Source: an uncultured Neomegalonema sp. (GTDB lineage: Bacteria > Pseudomonadota > Alphaproteobacteria > Rhodobacterales > Rhodobacteraceae). Taken from it: a DNA stretch of 32,961 nucleotides. The position numbers and the translations under genes are program-made. How positions within the stretch are numbered: position 1 is the stretch's first letter; each line of letters begins with the position of its first letter. The notes beneath the pieces are model-generated. The model was not told the DNA's origin, searched no databases, and worked only from the letters and a program-made list of their open reading frames with translations. The DNA is taken from contig CALFFK010000094.1 of NCBI GenBank assembly GCA_937957975.1, positions 1-32,961 of the forward strand, given 5' to 3'. Positions 27,820 to 32,463 of this stretch are shown piece by piece.

Positions 27820-28584
27820 TCACCACTGAATAATCTGGTGTTTTTCGTGTGAGATGACGCGGAAATTGTCGGTGACGGTATCGTGGAAATCGCGCCATTT
27901 ACGGGGATGGTTTCGCGGAAGAAGCCAAGGACGGCGTCGAGGAATCTGCCGAAATCCGGATAATGGGCGTTGTGGGTCACGTACCTGTGCATGACGCCCA
28001 TAATCGCTCTATGGGGTTGAGATGGGGCGCATATTTGGGCAGAAAATGCAGCCTCACGCGCCTGGCTGGATATGCTGTCTCGATCTTCGTCAGCAGTTGT
28101 CGGGTCGTTTGGGCATTGTTCTTCTCGCCCTGAACGAACCTGAAATCGAAGGTTTCCAGATTGAGCGCACCCTGGATATTGACCCGCTTACGCCCCGATG
28201 TGGTCTTGACCGCCGGTTTGCCGCCTTTGGGAAACCAGCCATAAGCAGGGCGTGACTGGTATTCGGGATGCACCGCATCGCTGAAGAGCACCGCCTCGTC
28301 ATCGGGCAAGCTGTTCAGCCTGCGTCAGATGGCCTTCGCGCTGACGGTAGCTTCATCTCCAGAGATGCACGGCCTTCTGACACGAAGCGGCTCCGCCAGA
28401 GCCGGATCGTTTCCACATCCAGATAAAGCACCCTGCCCACATCGCTTGCGCTCATCCCGTCATCAAGCAACAGCAGCGCATTCGCACGACGAACAACCAG
28501 ACCATTCGCCTTGCGCTGGCGAACCAGACCTTCCAGAATCTGACGTTCATCAGACGCCTCGCTGAATTGTGAAATCCTGCTCAT
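27820..28584 (-). pseudogene. Decayed IS630-family transposase
   Basis: Pieces of one IS630-type transposase lie in order on the minus strand. The N-terminal HTH part starts MSRISQFSEASDERQ at 28584 (with 'RQRKANGLVVRRANALLLLDDGMS'). The DDE part has LPDDEAVLFSDAVHPEYQSRP and, after a gap, KYAPHLNPIERLW. The C-terminus reads MHRYVTHNAHYPDF to a stop at 27820. Three frame breaks separate them (near 28350/28310, 27995 and 27880). Two internal segments are missing relative to the family: the linker between HTH and DDE, and the stretch holding the second catalytic Asp. The element cannot be active. No convincing full terminal repeats were found. Confidence 0.85.
28305..28318 (-). other. Deletion junction with 14-nt microhomology in the IS630 remnant
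   Basis: On the minus strand CTGAACAGCTTGCC reads as Ala-Glu-Gln-Leu-Ala in the frame continuing the HTH part and as Leu-Asn-Ser-Leu-Pro in the frame entering the DDE part. Both readings match what the family has at those separate places, so the missing linker was probably lost by recombination between short direct repeats. This is inferred from remembered family sequence. Confidence 0.45.
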
Positions 28585-28721
28585 CGGAAAATCATGAAAC
28601 AAAAATCGAGTCTTTTCAAAGGCTGGGATATTCGAGAGTCCGAGTATATCAAAGATGTCCGGTCACTCTCTTCGGTATGGAGGGCCTGGTCAAACCGATC
28701 CATGCGTCCTATCGACGGCGC

Positions 28722-31700
28722 ATGAGCGATGATCACTCCAACCATGTACCTCCAGATTGTACGATCTGTTCGGCCGTCGACGAAGTTTCTGGAATCGTCG
28801 ATCTGTCGATGGACGGGTACCGAACCATCGCCCCTGCCCGGCATGTGGCGACCTTTGCGGAGATGAATTACGCAGAAGCGGCGGACCTTATGGCCCGTAT
28901 CGCGGGGGTATTGGCACAGGCGGGGCCGGGGGGTGTTCGGTTCGTCGCTAGGGGAATGGAGCACTTCCATGTCGTCATCGAGAAGGCTGCGCCCGCTATC
29001 CCAAGTCGGTCTGCGCCGCCTCTGCTGACCACCGGCGGCGATGTCGCCATGCTCGACCGCCTGATCGCGCATATCGATGGGGCCGACCATGTCGATCTCG
29101 CGGTCGCCTTTGTCCTGAGGAGTGGCATCGCGTTGCTGCGCCCTTACCTGCAGGATCTACTCGACCGGGGCGGGCGGCTGCGGATGGTCGTCGGCGATTA
29201 CATGGATGTCACCGAACCCGCCGCCCTGCGCGTGTTGCTCGATTTCGAGGGGGATCGAGAGGTTTACGTCTTCGAGGCACGGGCAGACTCGTTCCACCCC
29301 AAGGCCTGGGTCTTCATGGCCAAGGGCGGGGGCGAGGCGATCGTCGGATCGTCCAACCTGTCGCGCACGGCCCTGACCGATGGGGTCGAGTGGAACCTGT
29401 CGACCGGACCCGATGCAAACCGGTGGCGTGAGGTGGCGGAGGCGTTCGACACGCTGCTCGGGCATCCCTCGGTCCGGCCGTTGGACCCTGCCTGGATCGA
29501 CGCCTATGAGGCGCGTCGACAGGCGCATGCCTTGCCCGATTTTGCGAAGGGGATCGTTGAGGAAAGCCCCGCCGACCCGGTCCCGACGCCCCACCTCATC
29601 CAACAGCGCGCGCTTGCGGCTCTGCAACGCGCACGGGACGACGGGGCGCGGGCGGGGTTGGTCGTGCTGGCCACGGGGCTGGGCAAAACATGGCTGGCCG
29701 CCTTCGACAGCCTGCCCTTCGGGCGTGTCCTGTTCGTCGCGCACCGTGAGGAAATCCTGAATCAAGCGATGGCGACCTTCCGGCGCATCCGCCCGGAAGG
29801 CCGCTTCGGGCGGTATGACGGGACCGAGAAGGACGGGGGGGCCGATATCCTGTTCGCGTCGATCCAGACGCTGGGGCGGGCGGCGCATCTCAACGCCTTT
29901 GCGCCCGACCGCTTCGATTATATCGTCGTCGACGAGTTCCACCACGCCGCCGCCGCCACCTATCGCCGCCTGATCGAGCATTTTACGCCCCGCTTCCTGC
30001 TCGGCCTGACGGCGACGCCGGAGCGGACGGATGGGGGCGACCTGCTGCACCTGTGCGACGACACGCTCGTTTTCCGCTGCGACCTGTTCGAGGGAATCGA
30101 GGAGGGGTTGCTCTGTCCCTTCCGCTACTGGGGCGTGCCCGACCCGGTCGACTACGCGCAGATTCCGTGGCGCGGGAACCGGTTCGACGAGGAGGACCTG
30201 ACCCGCGCCCTGGCCACCCGCACCCGGGCGCAGAACGCGCTGGAACAGTACCGCCTGCGCGGGGCTGGAGCGGCGCTGGGGTTCTGTGTCTCGATCGCCC
30301 ATGCGCGGTTCATGGCCGGGTTCTTCGTCGAGGCGGGCCTGCGCGCCGTTGCCGTTCATTCGGGGGACGACAGCGCGCCGCGCACCTCGTCGCTCGACGC
30401 CCTCGCCCGGGGTGATCTCGATATCGTTTTTGCCGTTGACATGTTCAACGAGGGGGTCGACGTCCCCGCCATCCGCACGGTCCTGATGCTGCGCCCAACC
30501 GAAAGCGCAATCGTCTGGTTGCAGCAATTGGGCAGGGGCCTGCGCCGGGCAGAGGGCAAGGAGGCGCTGGCCGTCGTCGACTACATCGGCAACCATCGCG
30601 TCTTCCTGACTAAGGCCCGCGCGCTGCTCTCGGCTCCCGAAGGCGACCGGGCGCTGGCCCTGCGCCTCAATGCCGTGCTGCGCGGGGAGGGGGGATTGCC
30701 GCCAGGATGTGAAGTCACTTACGATTTGGAGGTCGTCGACATCCTGCGCGGACTGCTGCGCACCCGCGATATTGATGATGATATGGAGGCGTTCTACACC
30801 GATTTCACCTTGCGCCACGGACGCCGCCCCACCGCGCTGGAAACCGCGATGTCCGATTTCGACCCACGCGCGCCCAACCATGGCGGATGGATCGAGTTCC
30901 TGCGCCACATGGGAGAGCCGATCCCTGATACAGTCACACAGGGGGGCCGGGGCCTGTTCGCGGATATCATGCGCCGAGCCGACCGCGATGCCCTTGACTG
31001 GCTATCTTGTGCCGTCGAGGCAGGGCTGGCGCGCGGCGTGGCCGAGCCGTTCACCTTGTCCCTCAGTCTCGCCGCATCGCCAGAGCGGACGACAGCGGCC
31101 CGTTCATACTGGGCCATGAGCCACCTGACCGAAAAGGGCGGCCTGCTGAGGCCGGCCCGCCTCCCTGATGATGCACCCCACACCGTCGCCGCCCTCCTGC
31201 GCGAACTGCTGGAATGGCGGCTTGCAATCACAGGTGAGGAAACCCCCGCACCGGATACGGGAATGCAGGAACCAGAGCGCGTGGCCTACGACCCGCATCC
31301 AGCATCCGGCCCCATCCTGTGGCACAGCTACGACCGACCCGATATCGCACCCTTGTTCGATGCACCCTTCAGCCGCGGTTCCTGGAATGCGGGTATCGTG
31401 CGCGTCGACAATCGCCTGATCCTGCTGACGACCCTAAAAAAGGTTAGCCTCGCAGCCGGTAATCATTATGAAGACAAATTTCTCGACCCCCATACACTCC
31501 AATGGCAATCCCAGACCAGCACCCGCAGGGAGTCGCGCCACGGGGCCATCCTTTCGGGGCAGGAAGATGGATCGGAGGTGCATCTGTTCATCCGCGCTAC
31601 GAAACTGCGTAACAGCAAGGCTGCGCCCTTCACCTATTGCGGCCGCGTCCACTTCATCGACTGGGAAGGCGAGCGCCCGATCACCATCCGCTTCGCCCTA

Positions 31701-31760
31701 TCCGAAGCGGTGCCCCGGCACCTGTGGACCGTGTTCGGAGTCAAAGACGGCAGAGAGTAG
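28722..31760 (+). CDS. HIT-like / PLD nuclease / SF2 helicase / DUF3427 fusion protein
   Basis: A 1012-residue multidomain protein, starting at the ATG at 28722 (MSDDHSNHVP); an earlier in-frame ATG at 28677 adds 15 residues. Domains in order: HIT-like (1-90) with CTIC (13-16), APARHVATF (38-45) and a degenerate histidine triad HFHVV (81-85); a phospholipase-D-type nuclease (about 105-255) with His192-Pro-Lys194 and GSSNLS (209-214); an SF2 helicase with Walker A ATGLGKT (317-323), DEFH (404-407), TATPERT (430-436), NEGVDVP (576-582) and QQLGRGLRR (601-609); and a DUF3427-like C-terminus ending near 1012. It is GC-richer than the flanks and lies between IS remnants. A role in nucleic-acid defence is inferred from architecture and setting; no partner gene is present. 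Confidence 0.88.
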   Translation: MSDDHSNHVPPDCTICSAVDEVSGIVDLSMDGYRTIAPARHVATFAEMNYAEAADLMARIAGVLAQAGPGGVRFVARGMEHFHVVIEKAAPAIPSRSAPPLLTTGGDVAMLDRLIAHIDGADHVDLAVAFVLRSGIALLRPYLQDLLDRGGRLRMVVGDYMDVTEPAALRVLLDFEGDREVYVFEARADSFHPKAWVFMAKGGGEAIVGSSNLSRTALTDGVEWNLSTGPDANRWREVAEAFDTLLGHPSVRPLDPAWIDAYEARRQAHALPDFAKGIVEESPADPVPTPHLIQQRALAALQRARDDGARAGLVVLATGLGKTWLAAFDSLPFGRVLFVAHREEILNQAMATFRRIRPEGRFGRYDGTEKDGGADILFASIQTLGRAAHLNAFAPDRFDYIVVDEFHHAAAATYRRLIEHFTPRFLLGLTATPERTDGGDLLHLCDDTLVFRCDLFEGIEEGLLCPFRYWGVPDPVDYAQIPWRGNRFDEEDLTRALATRTRAQNALEQYRLRGAGAALGFCVSIAHARFMAGFFVEAGLRAVAVHSGDDSAPRTSSLDALARGDLDIVFAVDMFNEGVDVPAIRTVLMLRPTESAIVWLQQLGRGLRRAEGKEALAVVDYIGNHRVFLTKARALLSAPEGDRALALRLNAVLRGEGGLPPGCEVTYDLEVVDILRGLLRTRDIDDDMEAFYTDFTLRHGRRPTALETAMSDFDPRAPNHGGWIEFLRHMGEPIPDTVTQGGRGLFADIMRRADRDALDWLSCAVEAGLARGVAEPFTLSLSLAASPERTTAARSYWAMSHLTEKGGLLRPARLPDDAPHTVAALLRELLEWRLAITGEETPAPDTGMQEPERVAYDPHPASGPILWHSYDRPDIAPLFDAPFSRGSWNAGIVRVDNRLILLTTLKKVSLAAGNHYEDKFLDPHTLQWQSQTSTRRESRHGAILSGQEDGSEVHLFIRATKLRNSKAAPFTYCGRVHFIDWEGERPITIRFALSEAVPRHLWTVFGVKDGRE

Positions 31761-31920: not shown

Positions 31921-32367
31921 TCACGGCGCGCGGGCGGCGATGGTGGTGAGCATGTGCGCGATGACGGGCGTGTTGGGCGTGGCGGTCGGGAAAGAGACGC
32001 GAATGCGGGTTTTCATCGTCTCGATGCGGGCGACGATTTTCAGGAAGGTCGTGCGGATTGTCTCGAAGGTAGCGGTGCGCCATCGGGATTTTCGGGGCGC
32101 GGCATTGCGCATGTCGAGCATCAGCCAGTAGGCGGCGGTGTGCAGGAGCAGCCGGAACTGGTTGGCCTCCCAGCGATGGCAGGAGGTGCGGTCGGATGCG
32201 AGGTAGGTTTTGTGTTGCTTGATCCACCTCAACGCATTGCCGCGTCCGACCTCGTGCAGCAGCAGCGTACCGCCGTTGGACGACATCGCACCAACGTCGA
32301 ATTTTGCGTGGATCGGAAAATTATCAACCGGTGACAGGCTGGGCAGGATCGGGGTATCGTCGGACAT
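31921..32367 (-). pseudogene. IS1380 transposase remnant with the catalytic core deleted
   Basis: A 148-residue open frame from the ATG at 32367 (MSDDTPILPSL). The first part, HAKFDVGAMSSNGGTLLLHEVG, is the IS1380 N-terminus. It runs straight into HKTYLASDRTSCHRWEANQF and RLLLHTAAYWLMLDMR, which is the IS1380 C-terminus. About 300 residues with the DDE catalytic core are missing between them (the family is usually around 430-460 residues). The join stays in frame. It is probably inert, though a DNA-binding fragment cannot be excluded. Confidence 0.8.
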
Positions 32368-32463
32368 GGTCGGCGGGAAACTCGATTGGCTTCGTCGTGG
32401 ATGGGTGTGCAAGCGGATTCAGCCGCTTATACCACGCTCGCCAGCCTGAAAAAGACCGCCGGC

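Follow-up and report, generated by a model that had tools for sequence, protein, structure and literature searches.

A likely SauUSI-type restriction endonuclease with a degenerate N-terminal HIT domain in an uncultured Neomegalonema sp.

SauUSI is a type IV endonuclease of Staphylococcus aureus, represented in the PDB by entry 7clg; enzymes that destroy DNA with chemically altered bases are a known obstacle to phages and other foreign DNA. The structural report describes a PLD nuclease (residues 1-191), an SF2 ATPase, a helical coupler (618-805) and an SRA-fold target recognition domain (TRD, 806-953) that reads 5-methylcytosine through D858 and W868, with Y831 said to touch the methyl group; translocation and cleavage are both reported there (PMC7913695). 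A second paper states that SauUSI cuts DNA containing 5-methylcytosine or 5-hydroxymethylcytosine and that its C-terminus corresponds to Pfam DUF3427 (PMC3874153), a domain predicted to bind modified DNA in a third (PMC7159879). Here we describe a gene encoding a single chain of 1012 residues on a stretch of 32,961 nucleotides (contig CALFFK010000094.1; the whole stretch is referred to as the window) from an uncultured Neomegalonema sp. We consider it likely that this gene encodes a SauUSI-type, ATP-dependent and modification-dependent (type IV) restriction endonuclease that carries a HIT domain at its N-terminus. This assignment is based on how the chain is built, on its homology and its conserved residues, and on two observations on the HIT domain, namely that the state of the catalytic triad changes once on the tree and that the domain is under purifying selection. 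By analogy with SauUSI, it would bring with it a modified-base target, translocation along DNA and a function in defense, and a role of the gene in defense is likely.

Architecture of the gene and its relation to SauUSI

A preliminary description of this DNA had recognized HIT, PLD, SF2 helicase and DUF3427 parts fused in one gene. The open frame is indeed intact, with zero internal stops, and the motifs C13xxC16, H81-F-H83-V-V85, H192xK194, Walker A K322, D404-E-F-H407 and R608 are all present at the residues it had named. The features of the gene are as follows.

28722..31760 (+): HIT-PLD-helicase-DUF3427 gene, 1012 residues, SauUSI-like (open frame, PADLOC mREase_IV, 7clg match)
28749..28991 (+): degenerate HIT domain, residues about 10-90 (collinear with the Pfam-recognized HIT of relatives; AlphaFold2 and Foldseek)
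28758..28769 (+): C13xxC16, putative zinc ligands (58/58 alignment rows)
28842..28844 (+): H41, putative zinc ligand (57/58 alignment rows)
28962..28976 (+): H81-F-H83-V-V85, what is left of the HIT triad without its third His (H81 58/58, H83 52/58, His at position 85 16/58)
29025..29486 (+): PLD-type nuclease domain, residues about 102-255, H192xK194 and G209-S-S-N212 (sub-threshold Pfam PLDc_2; collinear with the SauUSI nuclease)
29589..30641 (+): SF2 helicase-like ATPase, residues about 290-640 (ResIII and Helicase_C; invariant motif residues)
30642..31316 (+): predicted helical coupler, residues about 641-865 (AlphaFold2 helices; aligns to the SauUSI coupler)
31317..31733 (+): DUF3427, SRA-like target recognition domain, residues 866-1004 (Pfam DUF3427 2.5e-18; aligned to the SauUSI TRD)

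Relatives were collected by scanning a genome collection of 84,980 species. The best 80 of 139 relatives were kept, resulting in 81 loci together with the window, and 77 of these rows had enough N-terminus for comparison (L026, L069, L075 and L080 were dropped). Residue conservation was counted in an alignment of 58 of the 77 usable rows, window included.

PADLOC labeled the window protein mREase_IV (3e-112 and 3.9e-84), and Pfam matched ResIII (4.9e-34), Helicase_C (4.2e-9) and DUF3427, with PLDc_2 at 1.8e-4 lying under the Pfam cut-off. The best match among solved structures was 7clg_A (E = 1.1e-89, phmmer with the single protein), and positions 99-1015 of a 1044-position profile built from the 58 rows were collinear with residues 23-918 of 7clg (E = 5.1e-146). 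Foldseek of the full AlphaFold2 model (mean predicted local distance difference test score, pLDDT, 87.4; predicted template modeling score 0.81) returned 7clg at rank 1 (E = 1.4e-47, 949 columns). Both proteins thus have the same order of parts in one chain, from the PLD nuclease through the SF2 motor and the helical coupler to an SRA-like reader at the C-terminus; unlike the window protein, with its HIT domain at residues ~10-90, SauUSI begins with the PLD domain. Residues C13, C16, H81, H192, K194, S210, N212 and E223 were conserved in 58/58 rows, as were K322, T323, D404, E405, H407 and R608 of the SF2 ATPase motifs. SauUSI D858 pairs with D918 (D in 42/58 rows, N in 13/58) and W868 with W928 (56/58, two gaps), as counted by eye from the printed profile alignment.

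The preliminary description had put the gene forward as a candidate for an undescribed system. This holds for the HIT fusion but not for the remainder, which is SauUSI-like over its whole length: judged by homology, the chassis after residue ~98 is of a known kind, and the HIT-fused form is what is new. No description of a HIT-SauUSI fusion, or of pairs with SprT or methyltransferase genes (see below), was found in the literature searched, which covered few subscription papers.

Residues 1-98 of the window protein had no match to Pfam HIT, and neither NCBIfam nor PADLOC reported a HIT domain in the whole protein. The N-terminal domain is nevertheless called HIT, on the combined evidence of alignment and model, because relatives carry HIT at this place and because the fold retrieves HIT structures, and not from the window sequence by itself. 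In distant relatives, the same N-terminal place aligns as a textbook HIT sequence of the form CPFC...GHLLIVP.RH...AAGQTV.HLHVHVIPR. Pfam HIT was found at E = 0.01 or better in 29 of the 77 N-termini (best 1.1e-24), the window not among them, and the 77-row N-terminal profile matched HIT proteins of the PDB at 3.6e-11. An AlphaFold2 model of the window N-terminus from this alignment (pLDDT 80.9) has a predicted beta-beta-alpha-beta-beta core. Among the 50 listed of its 699 Foldseek matches, 49 belong to the HIT superfamily by title or known family membership and the remaining one is 3ksv, titled hypothetical; probabilities of the listed matches were 0.96-1.00 at E-values of only 0.008-0.07, none at or under 0.001. 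The earlier claim that residues 1-90 adopt the HIT structure is thus borne out at this level. The predicted core, the CxxC and the H41 and H81 positions are shared with HIT superfamily proteins such as 2oik, 3imi and 3r6f. Unlike these, the window domain is fused to a nuclease-motor and its third His is absent; an AAGQTV-type segment is also missing.

Several results weigh against the proposed assignment. The NCBIfam scan returned no model above cut-off. Global superposition on 7clg was poor (template modeling scores 0.30/0.35, root-mean-square deviation 26.8), and therefore the domain arrangement differs or is not captured by the prediction. The acid of the PLD HxKx4E motif (SauUSI E126) is M199 here, at a variable position. 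Reader residues differ as well, the methyl-contacting Y831 being I892 and M829 being A890. Cytosine-5 methyltransferases were found in 24/41 carrier genomes (own included; 41 of the 42 carriers were surveyed, L053 being left out) vs 112/198 family genomes. For the HIT domain, a profile from the 48 degenerate N-termini only (see below) matched HIT proteins of the PDB no better than E = 0.05, with an unrelated chain ranking ahead of them at 0.015, and hhalign against the single free HIT protein of the genome gave a probability of 2.2%. The putative zinc ligands were assigned by alignment and by analogy with HIT proteins rather than from a solved site.

Judged by its homology to SauUSI, the enzyme is probably modification-dependent; its exact target may differ, in that D918 and W928 have counterparts in SauUSI but Y831, M829 and E126 of SauUSI are not retained. 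A search of the window's own genome (93.6% complete) for cytosine-5 methyltransferases detected none. An avoidance of these enzymes by carriers is unsupported by the carrier and family counts given above.

If it works like SauUSI, the SRA-like domain at the C-terminus would flip and read a modified cytosine. The SF2 motor, once switched on, would translocate along the DNA, and the dimerized PLD domain would cut near the site and shred the DNA. The HIT domain, without its full triad and likely held together by zinc, would sit next to the PLD dimer and have a structural or docking role.

Probable loss of the triad and retention of the HIT domain

The catalytic triad H-x-H-x-H-x-x of HIT proteins is incomplete in the window protein (H81, H83, V85); the preliminary description had rightly called it degenerate. 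A full triad is present in 29/77 rows and an incomplete one in 48/77, the window included, all of them alphaproteobacterial. In a tree of residues 105-735 from the 77 rows (quick IQ-TREE, unrooted), the triad state changes once. The 48 degenerate rows form one clade with a Shimodaira-Hasegawa-like approximate likelihood ratio (SH-aLRT) support of 96, and the window's own subclade comprises 27 of them (SH-aLRT 99), with L004 from Rhodovulum sp. 12E13 as the sister of the window. Because other HIT proteins have intact domains, we infer that the change on this unrooted tree was a loss.

The third His is gone in 48/48 degenerate rows, with Arg at position 85 in 38/48, and H83 is also lost in six of the 48. 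H81 and H83 are both retained in 42/48, including the window. C13, C16, H41 and H81 are all kept in 46/48 degenerate rows; we take these positions to be the zinc site of CxxC-type HIT proteins, and zinc is mentioned in PDB titles among the N-terminal Foldseek matches (3r6f, 1kpc).

The degenerate HIT domain is shorter than the full-triad HIT and evolves faster than the rest of the chain, and it is under purifying selection. The ratio of nonsynonymous to synonymous substitution rates (dN/dS, Nei-Gojobori) in the degenerate HIT region was 0.00-0.41 in 18 of 20 chosen close pairs; the pair at 0.00 is nearly identical across the region and two pairs were not computable. The helicase gave 0.02-0.12 in 19/20 of these pairs, and the HIT region of 8 full-triad pairs gave 0.09-0.33. 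For the window and L004, three of four domains were computable and yielded 0.12-0.39, and the SRA part of L013/L031 yielded 0.62. All of these values are rough: some pairs are near synonymous saturation, and L038/L042 gave 0.39 or 0.19 with different alignments and column limits. A domain kept without its triad, at low dN/dS and with persisting zinc candidates, is what one would expect if its role were structural or in docking. We therefore read the HIT pseudo-enzyme as a putative zinc-bound accessory module rather than as an established nucleotide sensor. It would represent a case in which an enzyme domain lost catalysis once and was yet retained.

The preliminary description had proposed that the HIT domain senses or processes a nucleotide signal, for which we found no direct support, given the state of the second and third His and the persistence of the zinc candidates. 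A related explanation is that the domain binds a nucleotide (adenosine monophosphate [AMP], diadenosine polyphosphates [ApnA], or one derived from phage or damage) without hydrolysis and thereby gates the nuclease. The HIT fold itself, the 42 rows with both H81 and H83 and the purifying selection are consistent with such gating, but H83 has been lost in the other six rows, and the window lacks the AAGQTV-type segment that precedes the triad of full-triad relatives in the printed alignment. We regard nucleotide gating as rather unlikely.

Alternatively, the domain could be what remains of a formerly catalytic one, now dispensable and shrinking toward loss, which would agree with its shortness, its faster evolution and its incomplete triad. 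However, all 18 dN/dS values computed for degenerate pairs are far from 1 and similar to those of the 8 full-triad pairs, and the zinc candidates are kept in nearly all degenerate rows. We consider a relic unlikely.

Genes next to the HIT-bearing relatives

A small gene lies directly upstream of the HIT-bearing gene in many relatives, overlapping or abutting its start. Neighboring open reading frames (ORFs), some of them spurious, were taken as the longest ORFs at 60/81 loci (excluding the window and 20 close copies), and 134 of the 198 called ORFs were scanned. Counting only rows with at least 600 bases upstream (three full-triad and two degenerate rows had less), a gene for an SprT-like metalloprotease adjoins 10/26 full-triad rows vs 0/46 degenerate rows, and a class I methyltransferase gene lies upstream in 15/46 degenerate rows vs 0/26 full-triad rows; the rows are related and hence not independent. 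The ten SprT rows span five phyla. L069, outside the 77 rows, likewise has a methyltransferase gene.

L060:5345-5899, L074:5369-5896, L076:3499-4020, L082:5387-5911 and six more loci: SprT-like genes, overlapping or abutting the starts of full-triad members
L032:5381-5968, L037:5402-5989 and 13 more loci: class I methyltransferase genes, upstream of degenerate HIT members

Eight of the ten SprT matches had themselves gone into the local SprT model, and the methyltransferase model was made from three. Independent of the local model, Pfam SprT-like matched 10/134 neighbor ORFs, as well as both proteins that were scanned singly (1.5e-15 and 2.3e-12). With starts picked by rule, a 4-base overlap of stop and start is seen for the SprT gene in L060, L063, L074, L076 and L082 and for the methyltransferase gene in L032, L034, L035 and L037. 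A methyltransferase is fused to the chassis in L110 and encoded by a gene beside it in L108, and HIT was detected in neither. Neither the window nor any other member of its 27-row subclade had an SprT or methyltransferase partner detected at E = 1e-4.

The most interesting lead is the SprT-HIT-SauUSI operon, which is found in relatives and not in the window. It is conceivable, at a rather low probability, that HIT-SauUSI proteins are a separate branch of modification-dependent restriction, with the N-terminus as a swappable accessory slot, and that the full-triad HIT and a co-translated SprT work with the nuclease. In such a branch, SprT would clear the invading DNA of bound or linked proteins that stand in the way of the motor. 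The catalytic HIT would remove nucleotide adducts such as the 5'-AMP that a ligase leaves behind and thereby keep cuts from being resealed. The clade of the window would have kept HIT as a zinc scaffold without the protease, and some relatives would have a methyltransferase instead. If the SprT-HIT operon is truly a defense unit, restriction enzymes would recruit proteases against protein-protected phage DNA. More generally, the fusion suggests that front modules and operon partners on the SauUSI chassis are interchangeable.

HIT (aprataxin-like), PLD (TDP1-like), helicase and SprT protease are all associated with the repair of DNA adducts. The gene could thus encode a machine for DNA repair or end processing instead of a restriction enzyme, to which the SprT-like partner of full-triad rows, with its Pfam match, would fit. 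Yet homology to SauUSI extends over the whole length and includes the SRA-like reader, the distribution is patchy and accessory with restriction genes near some loci, and the window and its clade have no detected SprT partner. We find a repair machine very unlikely and retain the assignment as a type IV enzyme.

Among the other neighbors are HsdR- and HsdM-like proteins, a NaeI-like enzyme and further PADLOC matches; these are raw occurrences without a baseline density. PADLOC mad2 was matched by 4/134 neighbor ORFs (best 1.6e-41), and the methyltransferase of L037 matches it at 4.8e-9. In the subclade of the window, a plus-strand ORF of ~1150 residues lies directly downstream in L019 (8924-12370), L023 (8863-12300), L027 (8923-12408) and L055 (8848-12303); that of L019 showed weak matches to AAA_30 (0.00068) and DpdK (3.4e-6).

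Genomic setting and distribution

Transposase fragments lie on both sides of the gene, in agreement with the earlier view of an accessory gene between transposon remnants.

27980..28602 (-): transposase fragments HTH_23 and DDE_3 (Pfam domains)
31924..32412 (-): C-terminal piece of a DDE_Tnp_1_4 transposase (profile positions 329-431 of 435 only)

The HTH_23/DDE_3 fragments are presumably of IS630 type, and an IMP dehydrogenase gene lies beyond them. The GC fraction is 0.61-0.69 across the gene (500-base windows, 28750-31749) vs 0.54-0.64 in the flanks. In most relatives, a usable start codon lies 2-16 residues ahead of the CxxC (start codons chosen by our own rule), matching the start at 28722, and therefore translation of the frame extension upstream to GTG 28569 appears unlikely. 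That the gene is itself a decaying remnant between two insertion sequences, as the fragmentary state of both flanking transposases might suggest, is hardly credible given its intact frame, its invariant motor and nuclease residues and its low dN/dS against L004.

DUF3427 was present in 13/198 sampled genomes of the family, own included, and the only other genome of the window's genus in this sample is without it. In overlapping samples, it was found in 16/249 Pseudomonadota, 4/289 Alphaproteobacteria, 24/199 genomes of the phylum of L050's genome (Planctomycetaceae) and 21/198 genomes of the phylum of L080's genome (Microbacteriaceae). We reject a housekeeping gene in view of this patchy distribution; homologs are not confined to housekeeping contexts, some having restriction-gene neighbors (no baseline). 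A phage gene is rejected as well, with 0 phage records at a coverage of at least 80% of the protein.

From these four overlapping samples, 53 places were fetched for a survey of N-termini, excluding loci already collected and some short frames; the 12 other carrier genomes of the family sample were outside this survey. The PLD part was matched in 49/53 places, and a HIT N-terminus was detected in 6 of those 49 (L109, L115, L126, L132, L151 and L152). The HIT fusion is thus not unique to the window gene. In L126, L132, L151 and L152, HIT has an intact-looking triad and no CxxC. Many surveyed DUF3427 proteins (e.g., L102-L106, L112 and L113) share the PLD-helicase-DUF3427 chassis with the window protein but differ in front, with another N-terminal region of roughly 70-150 residues before PLD. 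The N-terminus of L110 is a methyltransferase-like domain, and L101, L108 and L116 have little or nothing there. The front of the chassis is therefore variable.

Three plasmid records, all complete relatives, reached a coverage of at least 80%, and each is annotated as DUF3427 domain-containing protein; type IV enzymes are likely hidden under this uninformative name.

Among individual loci, the window-clade-like L115 (minus strand, about 2.0-4.8 kb) is split over frames of 320 and 738 residues, which is probably due to an inactive gene or a sequencing error, and L069 is split over frames in much the same way. L132 contains two PLD-helicase frames in opposite orientation, and just one of them, a frame truncated at the edge of the fetched stretch, has a HIT N-terminus.

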